A stretch of 64,000 nucleotides of DNA from Mucilaginibacter rubeus (GTDB lineage Bacteria; Bacteroidota; Bacteroidia; Sphingobacteriales; Sphingobacteriaceae), in assembly GCF_014643835.1 (NCBI RefSeq), contig NZ_BMKD01000001.1, positions 1,302,001 to 1,366,000 on the forward strand, in the 5' to 3' direction. The translations under genes were made by a program, and so were the position numbers. Under the pieces are notes generated by a model. The model was not told where the DNA came from and ran no database searches. It was given only the letters and a program-made list of their open reading frames with translations. How positions within the stretch are numbered: the first letter of the stretch is position 1; each line of letters opens with the position of its first letter. Positions 33,339 through 61,016 of the stretch are shown here, piece by piece.

Positions 33339-33763
33339 TTTTTTAATGTTACCCAGATCAACGGGATTGTAAGAGGCACTATATGGATATTCCGGTATGC
33401 TTGACCATGCTGTTACGTGCTTTTTAGAGCAACGAATTGTGTTAGTGGATCTTAAACTTGGCTATTTACTTCAAGAAGATAGCGTGGTCAAAGTGTAACG
33501 GAACACTGTGAACTCTTTTTCGGAATGCACTGGTCAACAGATCCGGATTATCCATGCTGGCTTTTGAGTAGGATTTTTTTGCGTTGAATTATGGCTGGGA
33601 CAGAACATCTAAAAAAAGACCGGTAATTGATTCCTTTATTTTAAAAAATATATTTTCGGTCTGGACAACTTGCGATGCCTGCCAAACGCTGCTTTTCAAG
33701 TATATCCCTGCCACATATAATAACATTCAAGTTTCGTATTTAATCGTCCAATCGTAACGCTCT

Positions 33764-33796
33764 ATTTCGTCAATCCAACCCGTTTATTGTCGAAAT
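33764..33796 (+). promoter_or_regulatory. Upstream activator dyad ATTTCG-N21-CGAAAT (site 1)
   Basis: The half-sites ATTTCG (33764-33769) and CGAAAT (33791-33796) are inverted copies (7 bp if the flanking T/A is counted). The right half-site starts 65 bp upstream of the promoter GG, as in two other regions of this window. Probably the binding site of a sigma-54 activator. Confidence 0.65.
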
Positions 33797-33854
33797 AAGG
33801 TCTATAACTTTACTATGAACACACGCTTAGTCTGAAAATCAATATTTTAAAAAC

Positions 33855-33870
33855 TGGCATCGGTCTTGTC
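33855..33870 (+). promoter_or_regulatory. Sigma-54 (-24/-12) promoter 1
   Basis: TGGCATCGGTCTTGTC: the -24 GG at 33856-33857 and the -12 G at 33868 have the required ten-base spacing (GG-N10-GT instead of GC). It matches promoter 3 at 12 of 16 positions. It lies about 88 bp before the ATG at 33958. Confidence 0.65.
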
Positions 33871-33957
33871 TCGCTTTCCCTATAATGATAGCTTAACACA
33901 TCTGGTTTAACTACAATTCCAACAAACAAAATAATTAACCCTCAAAAAATTAAAAAG

Positions 33958-34332
33958 ATGAATAGTGAACAATTAATTGAATTAACCCGGGAACTGATTT
34001 ATCACGCAACGCATTTTGACGTGGAATACGTTAATAAAGCTTATGCTGATAAATTACTTATTGTAAAAGTTGACGAAGATGGTGTCGTTGACACTATGAA
34101 TAAAGAACAACTCATGGCTTTCATAAAGCAAAACAAAGATTTAAACACCGAGCCATTATCTACTAAAACCGAATATCACTACGCTGTATGTGATGGGGAT
34201 ATGGGTATGGTTGTAATTACGCGTGAATTGGTTTTTGATGGAAAATTGAACAGAAAATATTTTACAGTGATTTGGGAATATCTATCAGGCAGATGGCAGG
34301 TTGTTAAAGAATCGGCAGTGGTTCGTAATTAA
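33958..34332 (+). CDS. NTF2/SnoaL-like (DUF4440-type) protein
   Basis: 124 residues with the NTF2-like layout: an N-terminal helix (LIELTRELIYHATHFDVEYV), a strand with LLIVKVDEDGVVDTMNKEQL, and final paired strands (MGMVVITRELVFDGKLNRKY; YFTVIWEYLSGRWQVVKESA). Such domains bind small ligands or serve as small enzymes. It is a single-gene unit between sigma-54 promoter 1 and a strong terminator at 34406. Confidence 0.8.
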   Translation: MNSEQLIELTRELIYHATHFDVEYVNKAYADKLLIVKVDEDGVVDTMNKEQLMAFIKQNKDLNTEPLSTKTEYHYAVCDGDMGMVVITRELVFDGKLNRKYFTVIWEYLSGRWQVVKESAVVRN

Positions 34333-34405
34333 TAAATCACAACCACATTCTACCTCATATTATCTTCCGTCTTCCGACCGCAATGGCCTGTACAGGTCTC
34401 CATTA

Positions 34406-34454
34406 TCAAACAACCAACAGCGTACTGTCTTGCTGTTGGTTGTTTGAGTTTTAA
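34406..34454 (+). terminator. Strong terminator after the NTF2-like gene
   Basis: A perfect 16-bp inverted repeat, TCAAACAACCAACAGC / GCTGTTGGTTGTTTGA, is followed by GTTTT. It isolates the single-gene unit at 33958 from the next operon. Confidence 0.85.
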
Positions 34455-34588
34455 AACATATTTCCGAAGCCTATCACTTTCCTGGCCGTGAAAAGCCCGC
34501 CATTTTAATTCGCTTATCACGGGTGTAAAAAAGCTTTCGATTCCGCCTTGCTTCTCTCAAGGCCCTATCCTCTCCTTCAATACGCTGT

Positions 34589-34620
34589 ATTTGGTGTAAC
34601 ATCAGCATGTTCGGCGAAAT
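34589..34620 (+). promoter_or_regulatory. Upstream activator dyad (site 2)
   Basis: ATTTGG (34589-34594, one mismatch) and CGAAAT (34615-34620) have the same geometry as sites 1 and 3. The CGAAATAAGGT block is shared with site 1. The distance to the promoter GG is 66 bp. Confidence 0.6.
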
Positions 34621-34679
34621 AAGGTGCAATTAAAACTCAACCAAATCAACAAACAACTCAAAACCAATTAATTACCAGA

Positions 34680-34695
34680 TGGCACAAGGCTTGCA
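34680..34695 (+). promoter_or_regulatory. Sigma-54 promoter 2, consensus match
   Basis: TGGCACAAGGCTTGCA fits the canonical TGGCAC-N5-TTGCW at every conserved position (GG 34681-34682, GC 34693-34694). It drives the operon that starts at 34798. An apparent ATG at 34679 overlaps it, but that frame is not a gene. Confidence 0.85.
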
Positions 34696-34797
34696 AAAAG
34701 TAAAAAGCCGTCTCGCTGATGATCCAGAACATCAATACAGACTGAGCAAGGCGATAAATAAGGCTGGCAACAATTTAAACATTAAAAAAACATCAAC

Positions 34798-34965
34798 ATG
34801 GGAAACTGGCTATTCGGATCGCACAGCGATCCTCACAAAAAGAACGATCAATCAGAAGAAATGGCATCAGAAGGTTACGATCCAAATGAAGAAAGCCTTG
34901 AGGAAGGAGGCGAATATATGGACGACTCATTAAGGATGGTTGAACAGCCGCTTCAGGATGAATAA
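34798..34965 (+). CDS. 55-residue acidic protein, first gene of the sigma-54 operon
   Basis: Read from ATG 34798 to TAA 34963-34965: MGNWLFGSHSDPHKKNDQSE, then a very acidic stretch (EESLEEGGEYMDDSLRM). No signal peptide. It begins about 90 bp after the -12 element and 50 bp ahead of the DUF2652 gene. The competing frame (34679-34933) starts inside the promoter. The function is unknown. Confidence 0.6.
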   Translation: MGNWLFGSHSDPHKKNDQSEEMASEGYDPNEESLEEGGEYMDDSLRMVEQPLQDE

Positions 34966-35014
34966 AGCGATCTGAATATATATCCACATAAAATCTAATT
35001 AAAACATTGAAGGA

Positions 35015-35626
35015 ATGAACGAAGATCATAGGGGAACCATTTTTATTGTAGATATCAGCGGCTATTCAAAATTTGTTACCGAGACGGAGAATGAAGCAGG
35101 AAGCCTGATTGTTTGCAGTCTGCTTGAGTCAATTATTGATGCCAACCGGCTTTCATTCAACATTTCAGAAATTGAAGGTGATGCTATACTTTTTTACAGT
35201 CATGGCCCGGTTTTCCCTGTTAAAGAAATCCTTTCACAATTTGAACTTATGCTCGAGGCATTTAAAAACAGGCTCAAAACCTTTAAAGAAAGTTTTCCGC
35301 AAACCAGCTTTCTTTCAATTAAACTGGTGGTGCATTACGGGGTGATCGGGAGATTTGCTGTTGGGAGTTATTCCAAACTATTCGGTCAGGCTGTTGTAGA
35401 AGCGCATAGGCTTTTAAAAAACGGCATTGATACGCATACCTACGCGCTGATCACTAAAGAATATTTCAACGAACAGCGACAAAACGATTTTATGCTACCA
35501 GACGAAGCCACCGAGGTTTGTGAACTATATGATGTTGGCCGGCTTTGCTACACCTATTTCCCGTTCAATACCGGTCCGCTCCCATTATACCCGCAGGATT
35601 TAAACCTCGGGCAAACAGGCACCTAA
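35015..35626 (+). CDS. DUF2652 protein with class III cyclase-like fold (copy 1)
   Basis: 203 residues. The opening GTIFIVDISGYSKFVTETEN is the metal-binding start of the class III nucleotide-cyclase fold (FxDIxGFT type). SEIEGDAILFYSHGP is the second metal-Asp hairpin. Near the end, GQAVVEAHRLLKN aligns with the cyclase segment GxxVNxAxRL, where Asn is replaced by Glu and Arg is kept. Both metal Asp residues are present, so nucleotide binding is plausible; cyclase activity is uncertain. It is followed by bestrophin and PfkB-like genes. A paralogue lies at 41496. Confidence 0.85.
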   Translation: MNEDHRGTIFIVDISGYSKFVTETENEAGSLIVCSLLESIIDANRLSFNISEIEGDAILFYSHGPVFPVKEILSQFELMLEAFKNRLKTFKESFPQTSFLSIKLVVHYGVIGRFAVGSYSKLFGQAVVEAHRLLKNGIDTHTYALITKEYFNEQRQNDFMLPDEATEVCELYDVGRLCYTYFPFNTGPLPLYPQDLNLGQTGT

Positions 35627-35663
35627 AACCATAAAACTTCATTCAAAACAATCATCTATCAAT

Positions 35664-36671
35664 ATGCACGCCGGAAAATCATATAAACTGCCAGAGTTCC
35701 TGGTTTGGACCAGACGAAAAATATACAAGCTTTTTGTGCTTGGCCTTATACCGGTCATCCTTTATGAGGTGCTGGGGTTTAAATGGCTTGATATTCCCTG
35801 GGCTATTATAGGATTGGTGGGTACAAGCGCCGCATTTATAGTTGGTTTTACTAACACGCAAACTTACCGGCGTACCGACGAAGGGCAACAAATGTGGACC
35901 AGCATATTCAGTCAAAGCCGGGCATGGGGACTTATCAGCCGCGATTTTTTTAATAATCCAGAGAAAAGCAAACTACTTATTTATCGCCACATTGCCTGGC
36001 TTACGGTTCTGCGTTATCAGCTAAGGGAAGAGCGCATTTGGGAAAGCGTTGGTAAAAAGCACAACGCCGAGTACCAACAATACTATACCGTACCCGAATG
36101 GAAAACGCCACTTGAGAGTGAACTCATAAATTATCTTCAGGACGATGATTTGAGGCACATCATCAATACCAATAATAAAGCCACCCAGATTATGGCCTTA
36201 CAAAGCGGAACTATTAAACAATTGTATGAACAAGGCGAAATTGCCGTGCTACAATTTGTAGAAATGGAACGCGCCATCCGCGATTTTTATACGCAGCAGG
36301 CTAAGGCTGAGCAAATAAAAAACTCACCGTATCCCCGTCAATATGCCATTATCAATACCTTTTTTGTCTGGCTGTTTTGCATCATCCTCCCTTTTGGCAT
36401 GCTTAAGGATTTTGATCATCTCAATAACGAGGTGCAAGGTATAATGAAAGGATACATGGTTTGGTTAGTGACACCGTTCAGCACGCTGATATCATGGATC
36501 TATACATCTCTTGAACAGGTTGGCGAAAGCACCGAAAACCCGTTTGAAGGCAGTGCTAATGACGTACCCATTTCGCAAATGAGCCGGAGCATTGAAATTG
36601 AATTAAGAGAGTTTTTGGGCGAAAAAGATCTGCCAATCGAATTAACGGCTCAAAATAACATTGTAATGTAA
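35664..36671 (+). CDS. Bestrophin-family anion channel
   Basis: 335 residues matching the bacterial bestrophin/UPF0187 family: an N-terminal basic segment (LPEFLVWTRRKIYKLFVLGL), TM1-2 (PWAIIGLVGTSAAFIVGFTN), then YRRTDEGQQMWTSIFSQSRA, a cytoplasmic helical part with HIAWLTVLRYQLRE, and TM3-4 (INTFFVWLFCIILPFGMLKD; MVWLVTPFSTLISWIYTSLE). The family forms pentameric chloride-type channels. It sits 37 bp after the cyclase-like gene, an arrangement that suggests ligand-gated or stress-linked ion flux. Confidence 0.92.
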   Translation: MHAGKSYKLPEFLVWTRRKIYKLFVLGLIPVILYEVLGFKWLDIPWAIIGLVGTSAAFIVGFTNTQTYRRTDEGQQMWTSIFSQSRAWGLISRDFFNNPEKSKLLIYRHIAWLTVLRYQLREERIWESVGKKHNAEYQQYYTVPEWKTPLESELINYLQDDDLRHIINTNNKATQIMALQSGTIKQLYEQGEIAVLQFVEMERAIRDFYTQQAKAEQIKNSPYPRQYAIINTFFVWLFCIILPFGMLKDFDHLNNEVQGIMKGYMVWLVTPFSTLISWIYTSLEQVGESTENPFEGSANDVPISQMSRSIEIELREFLGEKDLPIELTAQNNIVM

Positions 36672-36727
36672 GCGATACCTGATTTAAAACTCTGAAACAT
36701 AATTAATGAACCTAAAATAAATTAAAG

Positions 36728-37729
36728 ATGGAAACATTAAACATGGAAATTAAAAACACGGCACCTGTTTTAACCAATCTTTTACAGATTGTAGAAAGCG
36801 GTTTGCTTTCAGAAAACATTTACCTCACACTTACAGACGAAGGTTCAGAACAATCTTTATCCGGCTTAAGGATAAACAAACTGGGTGTTACCGAAGCACC
36901 AATCCCTGAAATCCTAAAGCTTTTAGGTATCCGCAGTATCACCTTAAATGCAAGTCATGATTTTACCGAGCTGTCAAAACTAACGGTAACACTACCACCT
37001 GCGGAGGTTGAACAATACTTATGGACATTTTTCAGGGATGAAACTGTTATTGCCGAACTACGCTCATTATTTAGCAATTGCCGCACTATTGCTTTTGATG
37101 ATTGGGCAGCCATCACAGGTGCCTCTAACCTTTGGAACGGTTTATTGGCTGAGGTTATAAGGCCACTGGGCAAGAAAGATCTTGAATTTATCTTTTACCT
37201 GGGAGATCCCGGGAATAAACTTTCCTTCCAGGTAGATGAGGCAATCGATCTTATCAGCGAGTTTTCGCACCATGGCCAGGTAACCTTTGCCCTTGATGCA
37301 AGCGAGGCGATGAAGCTATGGATGGTATTGAACGGTGTAAACCCCGATACTCCATTAGAAGGGCAAACCCCGTCCGATCTTAACAAAAAATACTTCTCCA
37401 TTTATAGAACGATGGACGTTAGCCGCCTGTTGATATACTCAGCCGACAATGCAATATTATTCTCAAGCGATCAGCAATTTGTACTTAGTCGAAAAAAAGT
37501 TGAGCATCATATTGAAATAAGCGCAAACGCAAGGCAAGATTTTATTGCCGGCTTCAGCATTGGCTTGTTAAAGCACCTTGACATTGCTCATTGTATAGCA
37601 CTCGGTCTTATTGTATTTGGCTGCTACGGCGAATTTAACTCACAACCCGGTCAGCAAGATCTGTCGCTATATATCCAAAACTGGATCAAAGATCTCGAAA
37701 AACCCGATAGCATACACCTTTACGAATAA
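36728..37729 (+). CDS. PfkB/ribokinase-like protein of unknown function (copy 1)
   Basis: 333 residues with no family I know by name. Several segments follow the PfkB kinase fold: FIFYLGDPGNKLSF (~residues 153-166) at the place of the strand before the substrate helix, VTFALDASEAMKLWMVLNG like the 'N-x-x-E' helix, and ISANARQDFIAGFSIGLLKH like the GAGDxFxAGF anion-hole helix. The residue matching the catalytic Asp is Gln 270 here, while the paralogue at 42080 keeps Asp. It may therefore bind a nucleotide or sugar without phosphorylating it. It is part of the sigma-54 operon. The fold is inferred by eye. Confidence 0.6.
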   Translation: METLNMEIKNTAPVLTNLLQIVESGLLSENIYLTLTDEGSEQSLSGLRINKLGVTEAPIPEILKLLGIRSITLNASHDFTELSKLTVTLPPAEVEQYLWTFFRDETVIAELRSLFSNCRTIAFDDWAAITGASNLWNGLLAEVIRPLGKKDLEFIFYLGDPGNKLSFQVDEAIDLISEFSHHGQVTFALDASEAMKLWMVLNGVNPDTPLEGQTPSDLNKKYFSIYRTMDVSRLLIYSADNAILFSSDQQFVLSRKKVEHHIEISANARQDFIAGFSIGLLKHLDIAHCIALGLIVFGCYGEFNSQPGQQDLSLYIQNWIKDLEKPDSIHLYE

Positions 37730-37753
37730 ATAACAATCTTAATTTAATTATCA

Positions 37754-38206
37754 ATGGAACAAAGAATCGATCTATTTGCCAAAGGGGCAAACACACTTAA
37801 ATCGCTCTTTCAGGCTGGAGCTTACCTAAAACATTCTAAGATAGAAGCACCGCTTCAGGAACTGATTTTTTTCAGGGTATCCCAAATGAATGGCTGTGCT
37901 TATTGCCTGGATATGCACTCAAAAGATGCCCGCGCGCACGGTGAAGCCGAGCAGCGTTTGTATGGAGTAAGCGCATGGCGCGAAACACCGTATTTCACAG
38001 ATCGTGAGCGTGCAGCTTTAGGCTGGGCTGAGGCCGTAACTAAATGCGACGTGTCCGACAGTGTTTACGAACGTGTAAAACCTCATTTCACCGATGAAGA
38101 GCTTATCGATCTTACACTCGCTGTTACAACCATTAACACATGGAACAGGTTTAACCTTTCCTTTCCACAGGTTGCAGGAACTTACCAGGTAGGTCAGTTT
38201 GGTTGA
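37754..38206 (+). CDS. Carboxymuconolactone decarboxylase / AhpD-like protein
   Basis: 150 residues of the AhpD-like all-helical fold. The active-site motif is NGCAYCLDMHSKDARAHG with Cys 48, Cys 51 and His 55, the arrangement of alkylhydroperoxidase AhpD. It then reads RERAALGWAEAVTKCDVSD and INTWNRFNLSF. It would use its cysteine pair in peroxide reduction or thiol relay. It lies 24 bp after the PfkB-like gene and before a hairpin at 38214, so it may end one transcript of the operon. Confidence 0.92.
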   Translation: MEQRIDLFAKGANTLKSLFQAGAYLKHSKIEAPLQELIFFRVSQMNGCAYCLDMHSKDARAHGEAEQRLYGVSAWRETPYFTDRERAALGWAEAVTKCDVSDSVYERVKPHFTDEELIDLTLAVTTINTWNRFNLSFPQVAGTYQVGQFG

Positions 38207-38213
38207 TCAACCT

Positions 38214-38250
38214 TTTGCATGGGCCGGGCTTTACCAGCCCATGCAAATTT
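38214..38250 (+). terminator. Hairpin between AhpD-like and LigD genes
   Basis: An 11-bp perfect stem, TTTGCATGGGC/GCCCATGCAAA (38214-38247), is followed by TTT only. It could be an attenuator rather than a full stop, letting some transcription pass into the ligase gene. Confidence 0.5.
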
Positions 38251-38271
38251 CAGCAAACAGCCAACACAACC

Positions 38272-40347
38272 ATGACAACCACCCAGAATCTTGATATGGA
38301 TAAGAACCCCGCTTTTAACGATGAAAAACAACCAGGGCAATTAACGTTAGATGAACTGCTGGCAAACGCTCCCTTAGCAACGTTGCCGCCGGATTTTAAA
38401 CCTATGAAACCGACTCTGGTTGATGCTCCTTTTAACGATCCCGACTGGCTATTTGAAAACAAATGGGATGGTTACCGGGCAATTGCCGTTATTAATAAAC
38501 ATAACACCAAACTGCTTTCACATAACGAAGTTTCATTTGCCAAATACTATCCCATTATTGATGTACTAAATACATGGCCATGCAATGCAGTTATTGATGG
38601 CGAGATAGTAGTAATGGGTAACGACGGAAAAACCGATTTTGGAGCTTTGCAAAATTGGGAAAGTGAAAAAGACAGTACACTGGTATACCAGGTATTTGAC
38701 ATCCTATGGTATGAGGGCCGCAATCTGATGGGGTTACCGTTGAAACAACGGCAGGCAATTTTAAAGTATATTATACTACCGGGCAACCATATTATCCGCC
38801 GAAGCATACCTGTACCTGCTAATGGAACAGTTCTGTTTGCAAATGCCGAAAAGCACGGCTACGAAGGTATAGTTGCCAAACGTGCCGATAGCGTTTACAC
38901 GCCAGATAAACGCTCAAAAGCCTGGTTAAAAATAAAAGTACAGCGCAGGCAGGAAGTAGTTATAGGTGGATTTACTAAAAACAAAAGCACCATCAAACCA
39001 TTCAGCGCTTTACCATTGGGCGTTTACGAAAACAACAAATTGCGGTTTGCTGGAAAAGTTGGAACGGGCTTTTCGATAGACTTGCAAACCAAAATGCTGC
39101 AAAACTTTACGCAATATATTACTGATACCAATCCTTTTGATACTGAAGGCACAAGCCAGATATCACCGCTAAATAAAAGGGTGCCGGGCGAAACATTTAC
39201 CTGGCTTAAACCCAAGCTGATATGTGAAGTTAATTTTGCCGAGATCACTAAAGACGGGCTTTTAAGGCAGGCATCATTTAAAGGGATGCGCATTGATAAA
39301 CAGGCCATTGATGTAATATTAGAAACACCTAAAGATATCATTGCAACCATAGCCGGTGAAGAAAGTAAAGGGAGTACTTCTCTATCATCTGATCAGCCCC
39401 CAGCAACCACTTTTATTCCGCGGGGCAACGATTCGGCAACAATTAATTTTAACGGATCCGAATTGCAGTTTACTCATCTTAATAAGATTTACTGGCAACA
39501 GGAAATGGTGACAAAACGGGACATGCTTAACTATTATATAGCTGTTGCCGAGCATATGCTCCCCCATCTCTACGGCAGGGCGATGTCATTAAATCGCTTT
39601 CCTGATGGTGTTGGCGGCCCGCATTTTTATCAGAAAGATGTTACAGGCAGGGCCCCTGCCTGGGCTACCACTTATGCACACGATACAGCCAAAGGTGAAC
39701 ATCATAATTATATAGTAGGTAGCGATATTTCGAGCCTGTTGTGGATGGCCAGACAGGGCTGTATTGAGATAAACCCATGGCTAAGCCGTGTTAACTCACC
39801 CGAAAATCCTGATCATTGTGTGATTGATCTTGATCCTGACGAACATAATACTTTCGATCAGGTAATTGAGGCGGCGCTTATGGTAAAGAGAATAGCTGAT
39901 ATGCTTGGCATTCCTTCATTCCCAAAAACATCCGGATCAACCGGCATCCATATCTACATTCCACTGGGCGGGGGATATACTTATGAACAATCGCAGGTGC
40001 TTGCTAAACTCATCGTATCTGCCGTTAACAAGGAGTTACCTCATTTTACTACGCTTGAAAGAATGACAACTTCCAGGCACGGCAAAATGTACCTTGATTT
40101 TCTACAAAACCGGCCTGAGGCTACTATAGCCGGTGTGTATTCGCTCAGGCCTAAACCAGGTGCAACCGTTTCGATGCCGCTACATTGGGATGAAGTTAAA
40201 CATGGACTAAAAATGCGTGATTTTACCATTTTCAATGCTATAGACCGGCTTAAAGAAACCGGCGACCTTTTTAAAGGGGTATTAAACAACGGCATTGACC
40301 TGCTCAACACAATTCAAAAAGCAGAGAACCTGTTTGGTAACCATTGA
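38272..40347 (+). CDS. ligD: DNA ligase D (ligase + polymerase domains)
   Basis: 691 residues from ATG 38272; an upstream TTG adds only a non-homologous leader through the hairpin. The ATP-dependent ligase domain comes first, with adenylated Lys 64 in FENKWDGYRA, then VIDGEIVVMG, HGYEGIVAKR and KSKAWLKIK-type motif V (SKAWLKIKVQRRQ), and an OB-fold. The primase/polymerase domain follows (~430-690): HLNKIYWQQEMVTKRDMLNY, RFPDGVGGPHFYQKDV and the metal site VIDLDPDEH. The N-terminal 3'-phosphoesterase domain of some LigD proteins is absent. LigD repairs double-strand breaks with Ku, but no Ku gene is in this window. It lies downstream of the sigma-54 operon, so induction by that system is possible. 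Confidence 0.95.
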   Translation: MTTTQNLDMDKNPAFNDEKQPGQLTLDELLANAPLATLPPDFKPMKPTLVDAPFNDPDWLFENKWDGYRAIAVINKHNTKLLSHNEVSFAKYYPIIDVLNTWPCNAVIDGEIVVMGNDGKTDFGALQNWESEKDSTLVYQVFDILWYEGRNLMGLPLKQRQAILKYIILPGNHIIRRSIPVPANGTVLFANAEKHGYEGIVAKRADSVYTPDKRSKAWLKIKVQRRQEVVIGGFTKNKSTIKPFSALPLGVYENNKLRFAGKVGTGFSIDLQTKMLQNFTQYITDTNPFDTEGTSQISPLNKRVPGETFTWLKPKLICEVNFAEITKDGLLRQASFKGMRIDKQAIDVILETPKDIIATIAGEESKGSTSLSSDQPPATTFIPRGNDSATINFNGSELQFTHLNKIYWQQEMVTKRDMLNYYIAVAEHMLPHLYGRAMSLNRFPDGVGGPHFYQKDVTGRAPAWATTYAHDTAKGEHHNYIVGSDISSLLWMARQGCIEINPWLSRVNSPENPDHCVIDLDPDEHNTFDQVIEAALMVKRIADMLGIPSFPKTSGSTGIHIYIPLGGGYTYEQSQVLAKLIVSAVNKELPHFTTLERMTTSRHGKMYLDFLQNRPEATIAGVYSLRPKPGATVSMPLHWDEVKHGLKMRDFTIFNAIDRLKETGDLFKGVLNNGIDLLNTIQKAENLFGNH

Positions 40348-40565
40348 TTTATGACGACGTGCTAAATAAAATATATTAAAGGACAGCTTGCCACCCGCCG
40401 TAACGAAGATGACGGGTGCCAGCTTATCGAGGATGTTGTAATGGGTATGCACTTTCCACCCGTTCGTGCATAAAACAAACCTACGCCGGCATAGCATAGC
40501 TATGCAAACCGGTCAGCAACGCGATAAGTCGGCGGGCGGTAACACCTTTAACTATATCTGATTTA

Positions 40566-41183
40566 TCAATCACTAATCCTTTTCATCAGCTCTGCAAATA
40601 CCGTCACCGGCTGGGCACCGGTTATTGAATACTTTTCATTGAATAGAAAAAAGGGGATTTTGCCAATGCCTATACGTTGTGCCCGGTGTTCATCGGCCCT
40701 TACTTCGGCCGAATAGTTATCACTTTCCAAAAGTGGTTTCGCATCAATACCAATTTCAGAGGCCAGCGTGATCAATTGTTTTTTACTGCCGATATGTTTT
40801 CCCTCCTCAAAATAGGCTTTAAAAATCCTATTATTCATTTCCACTTCTTTACCCTCATCTACAGCAAAATGAATTAGCCTGTGTGCATCAAAAGTATTTG
40901 TTCGGATCACTTTATCAAAATCGATGATCAATCCTGCTGCCTGGCCAGCGGCTGCTATAGTATCTATTGTTTGCTTTGCTCTTAGTGGAGATAATTTATA
41001 TTGACGCGTTAAGGTGATATACTGTGTTTCATTATTATCAACCGCTATTTCCGGATCAAGCTCAAAGCTACGGAGCACAACGTTTGGCTGCTCACCGGCA
41101 TGTAGCTTAATAGAGTTTTCTAAATGCTTTAAACCGATATAGCAATAAGGACATGCCACATCAAACCAAATTTCAATTTTCAA
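40566..41183 (-). CDS. DsbA-family oxidoreductase (FrnE-like)
   Basis: 205 residues of the FrnE/DsbA thioredoxin-like family. The start is TTG 41183, since no ATG is in frame before the domain. The motif WFDVACPYCYIGL gives the CPYC active site at Cys 11/Cys 14. The helical insert has NTFDAHRLIHFAVDEGKEVE, and the cis-Pro loop is GIGKIPFFLFNEKY. It is cytoplasmic and likely a thiol-disulphide oxidoreductase or isomerase in stress defence. The 218-bp gap to the convergent LigD gene contains a 12-base palindrome at 40494-40505. Confidence 0.92.
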   Translation of the reverse strand: MKIEIWFDVACPYCYIGLKHLENSIKLHAGEQPNVVLRSFELDPEIAVDNNETQYITLTRQYKLSPLRAKQTIDTIAAAGQAAGLIIDFDKVIRTNTFDAHRLIHFAVDEGKEVEMNNRIFKAYFEEGKHIGSKKQLITLASEIGIDAKPLLESDNYSAEVRADEHRAQRIGIGKIPFFLFNEKYSITGAQPVTVFAELMKRISD

Positions 41184-41318
41184 TACTTTATGTTTAATCT
41201 AACTAACAACCAATATGACCGGATTGGACAAGATTTATAATATTTTATTTCATACCTATAAATCCTATCTTCAATAATTGTCCATATTTAATTGTACTGA
41301 CCTCATTTAAAACACCAT

Positions 41319-41350
41319 ATTTCGTGACTTCTACTACCCGTCGTCGAAAT
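41319..41350 (+). promoter_or_regulatory. Upstream activator dyad ATTTCG-N20-CGAAAT (site 3)
   Basis: ATTTCG (41319-41324) and CGAAAT (41345-41350). The right half-site starts 66 bp upstream of the promoter GG. The layout is the same as at sites 1 and 2. It lies in the 312-bp spacer 41184-41495, which otherwise holds no gene. Confidence 0.65.
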
Positions 41351-41409
41351 GAAGTATAAAGCCAACCCACAAAACAAGATAAAACACTAACCAACAACAC
41401 GTTAATACG

Positions 41410-41425
41410 TGGCATCTACATTGTC
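41410..41425 (+). promoter_or_regulatory. Sigma-54 promoter 3
   Basis: TGGCATCTACATTGTC with GG at 41411-41412 and G at 41423 (GG-N10-GT). It shares TGGCATC....TTGTC with promoter 1. It lies 71 bp before ATG 41496 of the second DUF2652 gene. Confidence 0.7.
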
Positions 41426-41495: not shown

Positions 41496-42062
41496 ATGGA
41501 AAAAGATTTAAAAGGCAATATCTTTATTATTGATATCAGCTATTATATAAACTATATTGAAGATATCGATAACGAGATACGCGCATGCATTATTGATAAA
41601 TTATTAAGATCTATAATCAGGGCTAATCATTTATCCTTTCTGATATCAGAGATAGAAGACGATACCATACTCTTTTTTCGCTATGGACCAGCCTTTCCGG
41701 TTCGGATAATTTGGGGACAACTGGAAGCAATTCTTGCCTCGTTTAGCTGCGAATTGGATTTGCTGAAATATTATGTACCTGCAGCCCATCAGCCATCTGT
41801 TAATATCGTTATACACTATGGTAACCCTGGTAACTTTTCAAAAAAAGAGCGCTCGGAGTTGCAGGGAACTATTATAGCCGGTCCTTATAGTTTGTTAAAA
41901 AATAAAACGGTACTGCATACGCATGCCTTAATTACAAATCAATACCTCGAAGCGCAAGTACAGGAAGCAATACCTACCGAAGGCCGGGTTTGTGAATTAT
42001 ACCATGCAAGTACGCCTCGCAATTTGTCGCTGCAAATTGGCAGCTTTTCAAAAACAGCATAA
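41496..42062 (+). CDS. DUF2652 cyclase-like protein, degenerate (copy 2)
   Basis: 188 residues, a clear paralogue of the gene at 35015: GNIFIIDISYYINYIEDIDN and SEIEDDTILFFRYGPAFPVR. The first metal Asp remains, but the glycines around it are lost (SYY for SGY; EDD for EGD). The C-terminal segment GTIIAGPYSLLKNK has lost the Arg seen in copy 1. It is more AT-rich and probably non-catalytic, perhaps a ligand-binding or partner subunit. It is the first gene after sigma-54 promoter 3. Confidence 0.75.
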   Translation: MEKDLKGNIFIIDISYYINYIEDIDNEIRACIIDKLLRSIIRANHLSFLISEIEDDTILFFRYGPAFPVRIIWGQLEAILASFSCELDLLKYYVPAAHQPSVNIVIHYGNPGNFSKKERSELQGTIIAGPYSLLKNKTVLHTHALITNQYLEAQVQEAIPTEGRVCELYHASTPRNLSLQIGSFSKTA

Positions 42063-42079
42063 GCCAACCGCAATTATTA

Positions 42080-43105
42080 ATGCTAAATATTAAAATGATG
42101 CAAGCGTTTGAGATGGAAATTGTGAATTCGGCCCCGGTATTATCAGCACTTGTTGAAACGATAAAACAGGCGGGCAAATCAAAAAACACATACCTGCTAT
42201 GTGAAAAGCAAAGAAAAATGACGGACTCTAAACTTCACAAAACATCACCAAATTCATTAGGAATAAAGGAATTAACGTTACCAGTTTTTTTTAAAAAATT
42301 AGGTATCAAAAGCCTGATGATGTGCAATGGCTATGACCTGTCATCATTAACCAAATATGAGTTTATTGTTTTAAACGAAAATAAATGCGAAAACTCCTGG
42401 CATGACATAAGAAATGACCAGCTAATTGCCGACCTGCATCTCCTGTTCAAAAAATGCAGGGCAATAACTTTTAACGATTGGACAGATCTGGTAGGCGCGT
42501 CGGGCTTGTTGACAGGGCTATTTGACGATGTGATAAAACCGCTTAATAAATCAAACCTCGACTTTATTTTTTATTTAGACGATCCAGGCAAAACCCTTTT
42601 TTATCAGATTGATAACATCCTTCAAATAGTCAGCAAATTTGGTGTTAAAGGTAAAGTTACTTTTGTACTTGATGAGTTTGAGGCGGTTAATCTTTGGATG
42701 GTACTCAACGGTGAAATGCCCAATACAACATTCAATATCAATACGCCTTATGGTTTAAAAAAGAAGTGCTTTTCCATATTACGCACTATGAACATCAACC
42801 GCTTGCTCATCTATTCGGTAAATAGCGTGATCCTGTTTTCAGAAGACCAGCAATTTATATTTGCACGAAGAGATTTTGATCAGATAGCCGAAATTGCCGC
42901 TGATGCAAGGGATAAATTTATTACCGGCTTTAGTTTCGGATTACTCAGCAAGCTTGATATTCAGCATTCTATAGCACTTGGCCTTATTATGCTTGGAGTG
43001 CAAACCGAAATGAATATCTCCGCCGACACTGCGCAACTTCTTTTGTACATAGAAAAATGGCTTGCCGATCAGGATCAAAATAATGATAAATATTTGTACC
43101 AGTAA
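42080..43105 (+). CDS. PfkB/ribokinase-like protein (copy 2)
   Basis: 341 residues, paralogue of the gene at 36728 along its whole length: FIFYLDDPGKTLFYQIDN, VTFVLDEFEAVNLWMVLNGE, and IAADARDKFITGFSFGLLSK, where Asp 278 sits where PfkB kinases have the catalytic base. The real start may be ATG 42113 (MEIVNSAP), which aligns with copy 1. It is 17 bp from the DUF2652 gene, so the two are an inseparable pair. No bestrophin gene is present in this copy of the module. Confidence 0.65.
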   Translation: MLNIKMMQAFEMEIVNSAPVLSALVETIKQAGKSKNTYLLCEKQRKMTDSKLHKTSPNSLGIKELTLPVFFKKLGIKSLMMCNGYDLSSLTKYEFIVLNENKCENSWHDIRNDQLIADLHLLFKKCRAITFNDWTDLVGASGLLTGLFDDVIKPLNKSNLDFIFYLDDPGKTLFYQIDNILQIVSKFGVKGKVTFVLDEFEAVNLWMVLNGEMPNTTFNINTPYGLKKKCFSILRTMNINRLLIYSVNSVILFSEDQQFIFARRDFDQIAEIAADARDKFITGFSFGLLSKLDIQHSIALGLIMLGVQTEMNISADTAQLLLYIEKWLADQDQNNDKYLYQ

Positions 43106-43147
43106 ATACCGACTTTTGTTTAACCATCAAATCATAGATAAAAGATT

Positions 43148-43486: not shown

Positions 43487-43531
43487 ACTAATGAGGCTGA
43501 CGAAGATGATTGTATACAGGGCGAGGATTTT

Positions 43532-45573: not shown

Positions 45574-47178
45574 ATGAAAGATACAAGTACCGAATATTTC
45601 ACAGACGATATGATCACAGTGGCAGAAGACATGGAGGCTGCTGAACCTGTAACCGAACAAGAATGGGAAACCACACTCCTGCTTGATTTTGGTAACGCAA
45701 TAGCTGCCGTAAGGAGTAAGGAAGATCTTTTTGATACCGTAAAGTTGTTTTTGCGAAGATTAAATATACTTCGGGGATATGCCATCAGAATGATTAACGA
45801 TGATGGCAAAACCATGAGTACCTATGTACATGACCGTGCCGTTACCACTCCTGATGATCCCCTGATACTTGAGGTGGCCAAAGCGCGCTATCCTATTAAA
45901 GATGGGATACAGGATAGGGTGTTAAATAGCGACACACCCGTTTTTTTAATAGTTGATGAAGAGATTGCGCGAGGCCACGATGCAGGGTATCTGCATTTTT
46001 GGAAAAGTGTGGGCTTTGTAAAAGTAGCCGGAATGCCTTTGCAAACAGCCTCCCGAAAATGGGGTATTTTATGGCTGGCCATGGAAGAAATCAACATTCA
46101 GCTTGTTGAAAGCCTTTGTTCGCTGATATCAATTGCCATATCAAACATCAAAACCAACGAACAAATCCTCATTCTTAAAGAAAAACTGGAACAAGAAAAC
46201 CAATACCTTAACGAGCAGCTTAGCAATAGCTATAGTGCCGAAATTGTGGGGCAACATCCTGCAATGCACAATGTATACAAACTCATATCTCGGGTTGCGG
46301 GTGCAAGCTCTTCGGTATTGATACTGGGCGAAACCGGTACAGGAAAAGAACTTATTGCAAGGGCCATACATCAGGCTTCTCCCCGAAACAACAAATTAAT
46401 GATCAAGATCAATTGTGCGGCAATGCCGGCAAACCTCATAGAGAGCGAACTCTTCGGTCACGAAAAAGGATCGTTCACCGGCGCGTTTGAACGTCGCATA
46501 GGCAAATTTGAACAGGCACACAACAGTACGCTATTTTTAGATGAAATAGGTGAGCTCCCGTTAGAGTTACAGGTAAAACTATTAAGGGTTATCCAGGAAC
46601 GTGAGTTTGAACGGATAGGCGGAAAAAACACCATTAAAATTGATGTAAGGATAATAGCAGCCACCAACAGGAATCTTGAAGAAGAGGTAGAGGCCGGCAG
46701 GTTCCGTGCCGATCTTTATTACCGTTTAAATGTTTTCCCCATTCAGCTACCGGCCTTAAGGGAACGCAAAGAAGACCTTATTCCCTTAGCCAACTTTTTT
46801 ATCAGCCGCTACAGCAGGCAAACCGGCATAGCGGTAAAAGGCATGACTGCCGAAGTAGCCCGCACTTTGCAAGACTATGACTGGCCGGGTAATGTACGCG
46901 AACTTGAACACTTGATTGAACGCAGCATCCTGCTCACAAACGATAACAAGCTAAGAGACGTTCATCTTCCGGGAATTAAAATAGATCAATCTGTTCAAGA
47001 CGACGCTCCGCCATTAACCATGGAAAGCAGGGAGCGCTATCACATAATTGGCACGTTAAAACGCTGCAGCGGAAAAATAGGCGGCGAAGGCGGAGCCGCC
47101 GAGATATTAGATATTCCGTCAACCACACTTCATTCAAAAATGAGAAGGCTGAAGATCACAAAAAAAGAATACAAGTAA
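45574..47178 (+). CDS. Sigma-54-dependent activator, one GAF domain
   Basis: 534 residues. The N-terminal GAF domain (~25-210; [40 protein letters not shown]) is followed by a short coiled coil and the AAA+ core: Walker [10 protein letters not shown] near 252, GSFTGA in the sigma-54-contacting loop, [10 protein letters not shown] Walker B, and the arginine finger region. The Fis-type helix-turn-helix ends the protein ([20 protein letters not shown]). There is no receiver domain, so a small ligand of the GAF domain is the likely signal. It directly follows the module at 41496-44776 and is in tandem with a second activator. Confidence 0.95.
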
Positions 47179-47249: not shown

Positions 47250-49334
47250 ATGCTAATGGAAAGTGAAGACGAACGGGACGAGATAATACTTTTGTTAAAA
47301 TGCGAACTGGCAAAAGTTAAAACGCAGGCGCAATTAATGGTAGCGATCGACAAAACCTTAAAAAAACTGGTAAACTTTAGCCAGGCCACATTGCTGTCAT
47401 GCCAGGAAGATGAAAGTACTTACCGGATCTTTTTTATGGATAAGGCCTCTGGTGGCTCTACTGGATATTCAAGCTATAATGAGATCATATCCTGTTCGTA
47501 TTCGTTTTGCGACGATTTATCCGGGTTTATTTCAAAAGCTGATAAAGCACAAATTTTCGATATCCGCACATTTAACTTAGCCGTAGCACCTCAATGGCTT
47601 AAGTTAAACTACGCGTCGGGAGCCCGTGAACTCATTGTAAAAAACCTGCCCGGTGCCGGGGATACTAAACATACTCTTATCCTCTTTGCAGATAAGTTAA
47701 ACTCGCTTACAGATACACATATACAGTATGTAGAAACAATAGCAGGGCAAATCGGCAAAGCCATTAATAACATCGCTGCCCACGAAGCTGTATTATACAA
47801 AGAACACAACAAAGCATGCCTGCTTAAATTTGCTACTGACCTTGCTGCTGTCAAAAAAAAGGGGGATCTGGAAGTCGCTATTTTTAATATTCTGGATCAA
47901 CTTATAGGCATAAAGCTATCTATGATCAGGCTAATAGAAGATGATGGAATTACTTTAGTTCCTTATCTATATGATAAAAACGCCGTTTTTAAAGATGAAG
48001 AGCTATTTAAACAACTATTGGCAAAAAATATAACTATCGACGAACCTATTTCGGCCAGAGTACTGGATAGTGATGAGCCCGTTATATTTAATATCGAAGC
48101 TGAGCAAAAGAGTGGCAACAGCAGCCCGTATATAACCCTTTGGAAAAAGGCGGGTAAAAAACATATGTACGGCGCCCGTCTATGTATTGGGAATGAAAAT
48201 ATAGGAACACTTTGGCTGTTGATAAACGAACTGAATACCCATCTGTTGAAAGGCCTTTGCTCACAAATATCGGTAGCCATATTCAACATCAAAGCCAACG
48301 AACGGTTATTGGCCTATCAAAAGCAACTGGAAACGGAAAATGATCATTTGAAAGAACAGATCAAAACCATCCACAATTTTTCGGAGATAATTGGTATCAG
48401 CCTGCGAATGCAAAAGGTTTACCAGTTGATGTCGCGGGTGGCCGATTCAAATTCAACAGTGCTTATTTTAGGAGAGACCGGTACCGGGAAGGAACTGATT
48501 GCGCGTGGGATTCATGACGCCTCGCCCCGGAAAAACAAATTTATGATAAAAGTAAACTGCGCTGCTCTTCCGCCCAATCTCATCGAGAGCGAGCTTTTTG
48601 GTCATGAAAAAGGATCGTTTACCGGTGCTTTTGAACAACGGATAGGCAAGTTTGAGCTGGCCAATAACAGCACTTTATTTTTGGATGAAATTGGTGAACT
48701 ACCGCTGGAGCTGCAGGTTAAATTACTCCGTGTTATCCAGGAGCGGGAGTTTGAACGCGTAGGCGGAAAAAGCACAATAAAAGTTAATATGAGGATAATA
48801 GCAGCAACTAACCGCAACCTGGAAAAAGAGGTAGTGGCAGGTAAATTCCGATCTGATCTGTATTACAGGCTTAATGTATTTCCAATCAATTTACCATCAT
48901 TACGTGAACGGGTCGAAGACATACCCCCATTGGCAAACTTCTTCCTCAATAAATATAGCAGGCTTACAGGATACAAAGTTGGCTCAATAGCACCCAAAGT
49001 TTTGCAGCAATTGAAATCGTATTTATGGCCGGGAAACGTACGGGAGCTGGAGCACATTATTGAAAGAAGCGTTTTAATGACAACCGGCAACGTATTGCGG
49101 GAGGTACATTTGCCAAACACAAAACAAAGCGATAACCAGGCCATCCCCCATTTTAATCAAACTATCGAGGAGATGGAACGAAACCATATTATTAATATCC
49201 TGAAACAATGCGAGGGCAAAATTTCAGGAGCGGGCGGTGCGGCCGGGGTATTGGCTATTCAACCAACCACCCTGCATTCTAAAATGCGAAAATTAAATAT
49301 CGCTAAAAGGGAATACATGAACCATGCACAGTAA
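47250..49334 (+). CDS. Sigma-54-dependent activator, two GAF domains
   Basis: 694 residues. GAF 1 spans ~15-180 (LAVAPQWLKLNYASGARELI) and GAF 2 ~185-350 (LLKFATDLAAVKKKGDLEVA; ISARVLDSDEPVIFNIEAEQ). The AAA+ core has Walker A GETGTGKE near 408, the GSFTGA loop and [20 protein letters not shown], and a Fis-type helix-turn-helix closes the protein. It is highly similar to its neighbours in the core and differs mainly by one added GAF. It lies 71 bp after the first activator gene, with AGGAGG at 47240-47245 just before ATG 47250 (or ATG 47256). It is followed by a terminator at 49346. Confidence 0.95.
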   Translation: MLMESEDERDEIILLLKCELAKVKTQAQLMVAIDKTLKKLVNFSQATLLSCQEDESTYRIFFMDKASGGSTGYSSYNEIISCSYSFCDDLSGFISKADKAQIFDIRTFNLAVAPQWLKLNYASGARELIVKNLPGAGDTKHTLILFADKLNSLTDTHIQYVETIAGQIGKAINNIAAHEAVLYKEHNKACLLKFATDLAAVKKKGDLEVAIFNILDQLIGIKLSMIRLIEDDGITLVPYLYDKNAVFKDEELFKQLLAKNITIDEPISARVLDSDEPVIFNIEAEQKSGNSSPYITLWKKAGKKHMYGARLCIGNENIGTLWLLINELNTHLLKGLCSQISVAIFNIKANERLLAYQKQLETENDHLKEQIKTIHNFSEIIGISLRMQKVYQLMSRVADSNSTVLILGETGTGKELIARGIHDASPRKNKFMIKVNCAALPPNLIESELFGHEKGSFTGAFEQRIGKFELANNSTLFLDEIGELPLELQVKLLRVIQEREFERVGGKSTIKVNMRIIAATNRNLEKEVVAGKFRSDLYYRLNVFPINLPSLRERVEDIPPLANFFLNKYSRLTGYKVGSIAPKVLQQLKSYLWPGNVRELEHIIERSVLMTTGNVLREVHLPNTKQSDNQAIPHFNQTIEEMERNHIINILKQCEGKISGAGGAAGVLAIQPTTLHSKMRKLNIAKREYMNHAQ

Positions 49335-51173: not shown

Positions 51174-51339
51174 CTTAATAATCCATACCGGCAGCAATGC
51201 CGCTCTGCCTAATGGATTACAATCAATATACCATGAATTAAATAATTGACTATCAGAACAATAAACAACAACCACCTTCCACCGCACACCTAATACAGCG
51301 GATTAAAAAGTACTTTAACGATATTGCGAGCAATCGCTG

Positions 51340-54033
51340 TCAGGAGGCTTGCGACAAATAATCCGTTTTGGAGATCTTCAGCTTTTTCATTTTAGCATGT
51401 AAGGTAGTTGAAGGCGTACCCAACACATCCGCAGCCCCGCCTGATCCTGCTATTTTCCCCCCGCATATTTTGAGTGTTTGAATGATGTGGGCACGCTCAA
51501 TTTCTTCGAGCGTTTGATTAACTGACAGGTCTTTTCCAAAACGGGTTTTAGGTAGGTAGATCTCCCTCAACGTGCTGCCGTTGGTTAACAAAACGCTTCG
51601 CTCCAGCAGGTGCTCAAGCTCCCTGACATTACCTGGCCATTGGTAACTTTTCAGCTCCTGCATTACTTTGGCTGATATAGATGTCACTTTCATGCCGGTA
51701 TTTTTACAGTGGCGGGCAAGGAAGTAATTGGCCAGCGGAGCTATATCCGCAATCCGTTTGCGCAAAGGCGGCAGACTGATGGGGAAAACATTAAGCCGGT
51801 AATAAAGGTCGGCCCTGAACCGGCCTGCATTTACTTCTTCTTCCAGGTTGCGGTTGGTGGCCGCTATGATCCGTACATCAACCTTAATGGTAGTTTTACC
51901 GCCTATCCGCTCAAATTCGCGCTCCTGAATAACCCGCAGTAGTTTTACCTGCAATTCTAAAGGCAACTCGCCTATCTCATCTAAAAACAAAGTGCTGTTA
52001 TGCGCCTGTTCAAATTTACCGATCCGCCTTTCAAGCGCGCCGGTAAATGCGCCTCTTTCATGGCCGAAAAGTTCGCTTTCAATCAGGTTGGCAGGAAGAG
52101 CGGCACAGTTAACTTTTACCATTAACTTATCCTTTCGCGGTGAGCTTTTGTGAACTCCCCGTGCTACTAATTCCTTGCCTGTCCCGGTTTCGCCCATCAG
52201 CAATACCGTTGAATTTGTTTTGGCTACAATCGACATCAACTGATAAACCTGTTGCATTTCAGGGCCGCTACCAACAATTTCGGCAGAATTATAAATGGTG
52301 TTTATCTGTTCTTTCAGGTGATCGTTTTCAACCTCCAGCATACTTTTATAGGTAATAAGCTGCTCGTTAACCAATACATTCGAAATAGCGGTAGAGATCT
52401 GCGCGCAAATTCCTTTCAATATGGCAAGGTTAACCACATCCGTTTCCATAAAAAGAATGCCGAGATCTTTACTTCCTGTTCGTAATGCTACACCAATCAT
52501 TTTCCGCAGCCCCATATCGCTCCAGGTACGAACGTATTGTGGAACTACCGGGCGCCTCATTTCCTGATCGGTGATAAAAAGAATTGGTTCGGTGCTCCGC
52601 AACACCTTATCCTGTATCCCATCCTTAATATCAAACCTGGTCGCGATCATTTGCTTAAACCCCGGGGCATTTTTAAAAATAGTAGTGCTGTCATAAACAT
52701 ACGAACTGGTTGTCCCCCCCTCGTTATCGATAAGCCTAATGATATAGCCCTTTACCGAGCTTAGCTTTTTTACCGCCTTTTCTACAGCTACAGAAAAATC
52801 GTGTTTGCTGCGCACTGCAGCGATATCATGGCTAAAATCCAACAGGAAAGATTTTTCTCTTTCCTTATTCATGATCTCCTCGTTGGCAGCAATGTTACTT
52901 GCCGCCGTAAATAACTGACTGGAAATACGTTCAACAATATTCAATGCCGCAGCATCAAATGTTCCCTTTTTGTCGGCAAATAAAATAAGGCTTAACTCAA
53001 GTTCGGTTTTACCGGGCAGCAAGTTGATCACCATTTCGCGGGCACCGGCAGCATAGTTTAGTTTAAACCAGAGCGGAACTTTATTGAGATCAAAAGTAGT
53101 CATATCAAGCACCACAGGGCCATCACAGCCCGATGCTGCGCTATAAATGCCATCATTAACCGGATTTGCGCTCTCAAGGGCTGCAACGTGCCGGGGGAAT
53201 TTTTTCGTGGGCGAATCCGGATCAGTTACATATACACTGTAGTTTTCTCCTGCCTCATCGAGGATGGTCATTACATTATGTGTAAACTTTACAAGCTTTT
53301 TAAGGCCGGTATTAACAACGGTAAGTAAATCTTTTCTATGCCGTACGGTTGCCAGGTTATTGCTTATATCCAGTAAAACCTCATTTACCCACTCTTTAAA
53401 TTCAATTTCTTCATTTATTTTAATGTTTGATACCGCGCTGGAAAGCTGGGAGCTTATCATCGATATGAAAGCCTTAAAATCGTCAGAAAAAGCCCCGATA
53501 CGGTCTGAATACATCAAAACATGCCCGATAGTTTCCATTTTACTTTTTAGCGGAACTATCATTGCTTCTTTTATCCCGCATTCGTAATTCACTTTTAAAA
53601 AGCCGGGAATACCGGGTTTATGTATAATATCGTCCAATAAAAATGATACCGGCATATCAGAACCATGCGCCTGGCCTATAAACGGATCGTCAAGAAAAAA
53701 ACGTGAGGCGAGCAATGACGGCAACTCGTCACGATGCTTGATCTGTAGCGCCTCCCTGTCAATTAAAAAAGGATAATAGGTTTGCTGCTGCTTATCAACC
53801 AGTGATACAACCGCGTGTGTAAAGTAAAACAGGCTTTTAAGCCTTGATGAAAAAACCGTAATTAAATCTATCTTGGTTCTTACCTGGGTGATATCATTAC
53901 TTAACTCCAGCAATACCTCCTTCTCATTTTCATAACACCGCACGTGCTTTTTAAGTACTTTGAGAAAATTCTTTTTGTCTGTCAACTGATTTTCGAAATC
54001 ATCAATCACTGTTAAAAATCCTGGCTTTTCCAT
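51340..54033 (-). CDS. Sigma-54-dependent activator, three GAF domains
   Basis: 897 residues from ATG 54033 ([13 protein letters not shown]). Three GAF domains lie at ~30-200, ~210-390 and ~400-580. The third is closest to the single GAF of the activator at 45574 ([20 protein letters not shown]) and the second to GAF 1 of the activator at 47250 ([20 protein letters not shown]). The AAA+ core has Walker A GETGTGKE near 613, the canonical GAFTGA (the two relatives have GSFTGA) and [10 protein letters not shown]. The Fis-type helix-turn-helix ends at the C-terminus. No receiver domain. It is alone in its transcription unit. Confidence 0.95.
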
Positions 54034-54413
54034 TTTGTAACAATTGGGGTAAAAAGGCACCAACGCAGATTTTACCGCGCCCATGGTACAGGCCGGCAAA
54101 ACCAACAATCATAAAAAATGCAGTGGCGGATTCAATTTTAAGCGATTTGCGCTATAGCAATACCTTCCCGTCTCTTAACCGGCGTTAGCTTGACCTCTAA
54201 CATTACGAGAGTTCCTAAAACATGCCGTTATCCTATTGCATAGTATTGCTATCAAATCCCTCCGCACCGAACACTCCCACTACTCGCATTTACAGTTGAT
54301 TGACAATCGACCTTCCGGAATTGGACATAACCGATAACTTTTTCCGAAACAGGCTTAAAAAGTAACGCCCCCGGTTATCCCGGAGGCGTTACTTTTGATA
54401 AGATTATAGTTGA
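54034..54413. other. Spacer between the activator and esterase genes
   Basis: It holds the promoter region of the three-GAF activator and the esterase terminator (54358-54396). I looked for the ATTTCG/CGAAAT dyad and a -24/-12 element on the minus strand and found neither. Confidence 0.4.
54358..54396 (-). terminator. Terminator of the secreted esterase gene
   Basis: A 12-bp stem AAAAGTAACGCC/GGCGTTACTTTT, extended by an inner CCGG pairing. On the minus strand it ends in TTTT and lies 18 bp after the stop at 54414. Confidence 0.8.
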
Positions 54414-60807: not shown

Positions 60808-61016
60808 CTTATTTTGTAATTAAATTTGTTTGCTGCCCTACTGAAAAACCCGATTCAAAAGCTTGCCAAGGCAGGGCATTGCACTTTCACAACCCACATA
60901 CCAGATATCAATTATTTAAAAATCAACAACTTATCAAAATAAACAACATCAAACCACTCCATATTTGGTGCCAAGGCACTCTCTTACACTATATAAAGCG
61001 GATATTTTGTCAAAAC

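Follow-up and report, generated by a model that had tools for sequence, protein, structure and literature searches.

The 64-kb window, by which we mean the whole stretch of Mucilaginibacter rubeus DNA that was analysed, contains three matches to TGGCAY-N5-TTGY, all on the plus strand, at 33855, 34680 and 41410. These putative sigma-54 promoters precede a single gene and two operons, and genes for three FhlA-like sigma-54 activators (EBP1 to EBP3) lie beyond them:

33855..33870 (+): -24/-12 promoter with GG-N10-GT, preceding gene 33958-34332
33958..34332 (+): gene read in an earlier note as NTF2-like; without Pfam match
34680..34695 (+): -24/-12 promoter with GG-N10-GC, of operon 34798-40347; top-scoring site of the window
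34798..34965 (+): ORF of 55 aa (MGNWLFGSHSDPHKK...DDSLRMVEQPLQDE), first gene of the 34680 operon
35015..35626 (+): DUF2652 gene a (PF10851, 93.6 bits)
35664..40347 (+): bestrophin, kinase-like, CMD/AhpD-like and LigD genes (Pfam, NCBIfam)
41410..41425 (+): -24/-12 promoter with GG-N10-GT, of DUF2652b, kinase-like, YCII and ECF-type sigma genes 41496-44776
45574..47178 (+): EBP1, FhlA-like sigma-54 activator (PF00158; NF011958, 405 bits)
47250..49334 (+): EBP2, FhlA-like sigma-54 activator (PF00158, HTH_8; NF011958, 413 bits)
51340..54108 (-): EBP3, FhlA-like sigma-54 activator (PF00158, GAF, HTH_8; NF011958, 387 bits)

The earlier note had placed a DUF2652 operon behind the 34680 promoter; an operon does follow, but its 55-aa first gene had been overlooked, and a short regular expression detected ORFs similar to this gene in four of eight related loci. 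Two of the labels given at that time, NTF2-like and PfkB, were weakly borne out, with the first gene lacking a Pfam match, the first kinase-like gene reaching 30.2 bits with Khk against a cut-off of 35 bits, and the second giving no match. The two DUF2652 proteins are paralogues with 44% identity, members of a family predicted, in a passage of PMC4886424, to be nucleotide-cyclase-like and of the guanylate type in Bacteroidetes. Scanning with both returned five loci, the best in M. gossypii (88%), a Bacteroidota MAG (87%) and M. gossypiicola (81%), and one scan for viral relatives of DUF2652 yielded none. M. gossypii has the same gene order as the window, and M. gossypiicola has it with an insertion. 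Upstream of the M. gossypii LigD operon lies an ORF (L001 4191-4961, minus strand) that looks like a Ku gene. In the window itself, a 1208-aa ORF at 29712-33338 (plus strand) joins an AraC-type HTH (HTH_18) to a MacB/FtsX transporter permease in an odd fusion.

Two facing boxes and an IHF-like element

Upstream of each promoter, the earlier note had described ATTTCG or ATTTGG followed by CGAAAT in a fixed geometry, and on recheck its coordinates, arm spacing and distances to the GG proved exact to the base. For the 33855, 34680 and 41410 promoters, respectively, the first word starts at 33764, 34589 and 41319 and CGAAAT at 33791, 34615 and 41345, with start-to-start distances of 27, 26 and 26 bp and with 65, 66 and 66 bp from CGAAAT to the GG. 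The view that this geometry is hard to explain by chance was also upheld, as arms plus promoter occur three times in the window, not once in the reversed window and in none of 100 second-order Markov windows; the arms alone matched five times at three places (two of which match in both orientations), where the Markov mean was 0.16. Of five related genomes searched, four have CGAAAT at exactly 59 bp ahead of TGGCA, at five sites in all. The M. gossypii counterpart of the 33855 promoter is degenerate, with AGGAAT at -24. A genus-wide scan with one hexamer plus promoter fared worse: across 149 genus genomes, the strict pattern CGAAAT-N56-62-TGGCAY-N5-TTGY gave 18 matches (15 genomes) against 22 in a control read backwards, which is no excess and makes the pattern undiagnostic genus-wide. 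As the strict pattern stayed at control level, sequence profiles were used instead, R1 built from 18 aligned sites and R2 from 51 sites.

An alignment of 18 promoters from the window and six relatives places the hexamers as the inner halves of two larger boxes, L and R, whose core CNNNATNNNG (C, A, T, G) is invariant in 36 of 36 boxes. The dyad of the earlier note thus retains its inverted symmetry, which arises from two facing boxes with palindromic cores, but not its extent. Box centres lie 30 bp apart in 15 of the 18 sites, 31 bp in two and 29 bp in one, and box R lies 61-63 bp before the GG. The elements of the three promoters are as follows:

33760..33769 (+): box L core CTCTATTTCG of the 33855 promoter, fitting CNNNATNNNG (18-site alignment)
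33791..33800 (+): box R core CGAAATAAGG of the 33855 promoter, centre 31 bp past the box L centre
33837..33849 (+): IHF-consensus-like element AATCAATATTTTA of the 33855 promoter, WATCAANNNNTTR exact at -18 from TGG
34585..34594 (+): box L core of the 34680 promoter (18-site alignment)
34615..34624 (+): box R core of the 34680 promoter, centre 30 bp past the box L centre
34662..34674 (+): IHF-like element of the 34680 promoter, inexact, at most two mismatches at -18
41315..41324 (+): box L core of the 41410 promoter (18-site alignment)
41345..41354 (+): box R core of the 41410 promoter (18-site alignment)
41392..41404 (+): IHF-like element of the 41410 promoter, inexact, at most two mismatches at -18

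Across 51 sites, mean column identity is 0.70-0.74 in the boxes (0.73-0.74), the IHF-like element and the promoter, against 0.44 in the inter-box spacer, and the information content is 4.6 bits in the outer and 6.8 bits in the inner half of box L, and 5.8 bits in the inner and 5.6 bits in the outer half of box R. A direct-repeat reading was rejected, since among 42 sites box L matches box R with an identity of 0.43 directly versus 0.52 as its reverse complement. Identities of boxes L and R to their own reverse complements are 0.47 and 0.45 in the same 42 sites; full palindromes were also discarded as a description, with pairing beyond the core not exceeding column shuffles in 30 independent boxes. 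Several sites (at loci L066 and L067 and in genomes G097, G129 and G146) form close divergent pairs on opposite strands. At three further sigma-54-type promoters (L071 14662, L072 15249 and L068 16817, minus strand), a good box R is accompanied by an AGTGGC...GCCACT-like sequence in place of box L, perhaps the mark of a second activator type.

The promoter anatomy first proposed had overlooked an element at a fixed place before the -24 that resembles WATCAANNNNTTR, the conventional IHF consensus as given in an excerpt of PMC10380432. Of the 18 aligned sites, 8 have an exact copy of this sequence at -18, counted from the T of TGG; among the five window sites described here and below it is exact in one and within two mismatches in all five. 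In 18 independent sites chosen without the element, 11 carry it at -18 with at most two mismatches (200 shuffles: mean 3.1, maximum 7) and six exactly. Among promoter-like sequences chosen without boxes, 2 of the 15 from rpoN regions and 4 of the 14 from activator regions have an IHF-like element. PF00216 matched one protein per genome in six of six genomes, so that this model gives no pair of IHF subunits. That count is a point against a classical IHF pair; an HU-like protein may act instead.

Applied to the window, R1 found two sites outside its training set, at 51217-51335 (minus, 28.8 bits) and 60886-61005 (minus, 27.5 bits), which comprise:

51218..51233 (-): -24/-12 promoter TGGTATATTGATTGTA before AraC-type gene 50319-51173 (R1, 28.8 bits; kept in L056, L057 and L060)
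51319..51328 (-): box L core of the AraC-gene promoter
51289..51298 (-): box R core of the AraC-gene promoter
60888..60903 (-): -24/-12 promoter TGGTATGTGGGTTGTG before MocR-type gene 59332-60807 (R1, 27.5 bits; kept in L056, L058, L059 and L062)
60989..60998 (-): box L core of the MocR-gene promoter
60959..60968 (-): box R core of the MocR-gene promoter

Both sites recur before like genes in relatives, the MocR-gene site being not fully independent, as its M. aquaedulcis counterpart (L005) was in the R1 training; the MocR-type gene itself reaches 319.4 bits with the PdxR model (cut-off 320). GG-N10-G(C/T) is present at -24/-12 in all five window sites. A composite score of at least 20 was reached by 50 real sites, one reversed and no Markov sequence, in regions chosen by R1 and with training sites included. 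Upstream of the window ferritin-like gene 57169-59211 and NmrA-like gene 61076-61831, R1 gave no match, though the M. aquaedulcis counterparts have sites; adjoining this ferritin-like gene, whose M. aquaedulcis counterpart is boxed, is a Dps-like gene (56613-57143, minus; 78.7 bits against an NCBIfam cut-off of 114). A shared upstream element at three sigma-54-type promoters had been correctly recognised, but the regulon drawn from it was too small: at least five transcription units of the window carry the same two boxes and would probably switch on together.

Distribution and association with FhlA-like activators

At E<=0.01, R1 matches were found in 118 of 149 genus genomes, many of them partial or weak. 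R2 matched 94 of 301 family genomes at E<=1e-4 and 12 of 395 Bacteroidia genomes at E<=1e-5, five of these 12 being already in the family search; on the latter count a class-wide spread was rejected, and the system is concentrated in Sphingobacteriaceae. Co-occurrence with rpoN (PF04552) was uninformative, with 142 of 149 genus genomes positive, M. gossypii (G001) included. For the activators, 61 genus genomes were split into 28 with FhlA-like activators (best E <=6e-104) and 33 without (best E >=5e-82), the cut being set after the gap was seen. R1 matched at E<=1e-4 in 23 of the 28 (one at 1.0e-4) versus 2 of the 33 (p=7.6e-10), leaving five activator genomes without a match at this threshold, and with two training genomes removed the contrast was 21/26 versus 2/33 (p=2.4e-9). 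Among genomes of at least 5 Mb it was 18/19 versus 1/10, and it was weak below 5 Mb (3/7 versus 1/23, p=0.03).

This association was further strengthened by regions chosen through their proteins. Twenty activator regions were hand-picked from protein matches, omitting places fetched previously, although some of their genomes had shown R1 matches before, and were compared with twenty rpoN regions, of which 15 genomes were shared with the activator set and five were not. At a score of at least 14, 18 sites appeared in 11 of the 20 activator regions and none in the 20 rpoN regions or in either reversed set; at a score of at least 10, 23 activator-region sites stood against one rpoN-region site (reversed, four and two). 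Of these 18 independent sites, 13 have a score above zero for box L as well as for box R. The two-box architecture follows FhlA-like activators across genomes.

Targets and candidate regulators

In total, 77 two-box sites were collected, 75 of them with an ORF, and 59 of these 75 first genes were scanned for families after leaving out 10 near-duplicates and six doubtful short ORFs. The 25 commonest of 41 target families include alpha/beta hydrolases (7), NAD-binding and NmrA families (6 and 5), short-chain dehydrogenases (4), Alginate_exp (4), sigma-54 activators (3), sigma-70 factors with regions 1.2 to 4 (3), YceI (2) and AraC-type HTH (2), as well as three DUF2652 genes, all from the seed loci. 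At L085, L089 and L105, two-box sites precede genes with sigma-54 activator starts, and 3 of the 59 scanned targets match PF00158, which suggests activator cascades. Judged by family, the targets would fit a programme of stress response or maintenance that includes regulatory cascades.

That three sigma-54 activators are encoded alongside the promoters was confirmed by PF00158 in each of EBP1 to EBP3. All three have the features of enhancer-binding proteins, including an HTH and an AAA+ domain with a GAFTGA-type sigma-54 loop (GSFTGA, GSFTGA and GAFTGA in EBP1, 2 and 3), and they have the helix word TTLH(S/A)KM in common. FhlA (NF011958) is their best NCBIfam model, but at 405, 413 and 387 bits against a curated cut-off of 830. 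EBP1 has counterparts of 95% identity in G001, 86% in G003 and 80% in G005, and of seven compared genomes, the six that have any FhlA-like activators encode 3 to 17 of them at E<=1e-94; one M. gossypiicola match (G003:C15:1016323-1017258) contains an in-frame TAA.

The activator acting at the boxes may or may not be one of these three, as two genomes have the promoters without close relatives of EBP1 to EBP3. In G119 and G124, promoters of the NTF2-like and DUF2652-operon types are present, and the nearest activator, a protein of 366-378 aa with the word TTLHAKM and a divergent partner, is 65% identical to EBP1. The boxes could accordingly be real sigma-54 activator sites whose regulator is another FhlA-like activator, for example a short TTLHAKM-type protein of this kind, found at 366-394 aa in G001, G003, G119 and G124 and with the helix word TTLH(A/S)KM in common with EBP1 to EBP3. 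M. gossypii has a like pair of short activator and divergent partner at C16:154789 and 157270, and from the spacing of neighbouring sites the window counterpart would fall beyond the window's right end. Against this, EBP1 to EBP3 adjoin the promoters, and G005 combines the promoters with three long activators close to those of the window, the short protein being absent among the matches listed. We regard this alternative as a serious contender, at somewhat less than even odds.

A further lead comes from box position -6, which is C in 39 of 52 boxes at all-TLH loci versus 5 of 32 at TLN loci (A in 12 of 32; p=1e-7). The comparison covers ten and seven loci grouped by us, leaving out mixed loci and those without a parsed activator, with some activators unparsed; because TLH-type loci were the source of the matrix and the sites share ancestry, the difference would serve as a lead to helix-specific boxes.

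Proposed mechanism and comparison with known systems

The motif, its spacing, its conservation and its link to FhlA-like activators are observed in the sequences themselves, and the sites most likely represent a genuine sigma-54 enhancer architecture that is conserved and belongs to a known kind, while its box is specific to the lineage. We would place at roughly 0.8 the probability that the promoters are sigma-54 promoters dependent on enhancers, each with a pair of sites for activator dimers, a reading in which binding, dimers, bending and transcription are all inferred from sequence. An FhlA-like AAA+ activator would bind the two boxes, most likely as dimers, at cores of the form given above, in these loci often CAC-N3-AT-N3-GTG, with centres about 30 bp (about three DNA turns) apart and with box R some 62 bp ahead of the -24 GG. 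Bending of the DNA at the IHF-like element would let the activator reach the polymerase bound at -24/-12, and the promoter would then be opened through ATP hydrolysis.

Binding of the boxes by some other regulator, for instance a repressor overlapping sigma-54-type promoters, would agree with a box symmetry limited to the core, but we consider it unlikely given the fixed position before the -24 and the way in which the sites follow FhlA-like activators, both across genomes and in protein-chosen regions. Recent copying of one promoter region, with no selection on the boxes, would find some backing in the DUF2652a/DUF2652b paralogy (44% identity); it is highly improbable, as the spacers have diverged (0.44) while the boxes were kept (0.73-0.74), and as the same boxes precede unrelated genes. 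Chance resemblance, for which only the strict pattern speaks (18 versus 22 control matches in 149 genomes), can be set aside in view of the Markov windows (0/100), the composite scores (50 real, one reversed, no Markov), the protein-chosen regions (18 sites versus 0) and the 59-bp spacing in four of five related genomes.

The box lets targets of an expanded sensor-activator family be predicted from sequence, and since the paralogous activators are numerous and differ in helix and box, the DNA-recognition code of the Fis-type HTH becomes testable. It is conceivable, though we hold it as a tentative and rather doubtful extension, that Mucilaginibacter expanded its FhlA-like activators into sigma-54 circuits that run in parallel and share a scaffold of two boxes, bend and -24/-12, with a simple code by which the TLH helix reads CAC...GTG and TLN reads AAC...GTT. 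Since the targets include activators, group-2-like sigma-70 factors, an ECF-type sigma and AraC and MocR regulators, such circuits would be layered, and feedback may, as a speculation, run through a nucleotide made by the cyclase-like DUF2652 proteins and sensed by GAF domains.

A literature search in one open library returned no description of an activator box for this lineage, and a term search of a 2025 sigma-54 survey (PMC12316311) gave no occurrence of 'UAS', 'IHF' or 'Mucilaginibacter'. In the same phylum, Flavobacterium psychrophilum likewise has sigma-54 promoters, with -24/-12 elements at mapped starts and sigma-54 activators in its genome, but the targets there concern gliding, envelope and protein quality, and the sections of that report considered here describe no activator box (PMC9723704). 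In the FhlA regulon of E. coli and Salmonella (hyc, hyp, hydN, fdhF), the published site CATTTCGTACGAAATG, as quoted from part of PMC4987338, contains both ATTTCG and CGAAAT. The words are the same as in the window and the arrangement is different, with ATTTCG-N2-CGAAAT there, an arrangement absent from the three window sites, and words about 20 bp apart (26-27 bp start to start) here. EBP1, 2 and 3 are 50, 44 and 42% identical to E. coli FhlA over 390-475 aa, all three remaining below the FhlA cut-off (387-413 versus 830 bits). E. coli hypA has TGGCACAATTATTGC with ATTTCG 44 and 68 bp upstream, and the E. coli hyc-hyp intergenic region does not stand out under the pooled box matrix. In the NtrC-type layout of glnA, two dimer sites lie about three turns apart, each resembling TGCACC-N5-GGTGCA. 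The NtrC site is close to CAC-N8-GTG and is paired over the same distance of about three turns. The within-box spacing here is one base different, and instead of response regulators the activators are FhlA-like proteins that have GAF domains.
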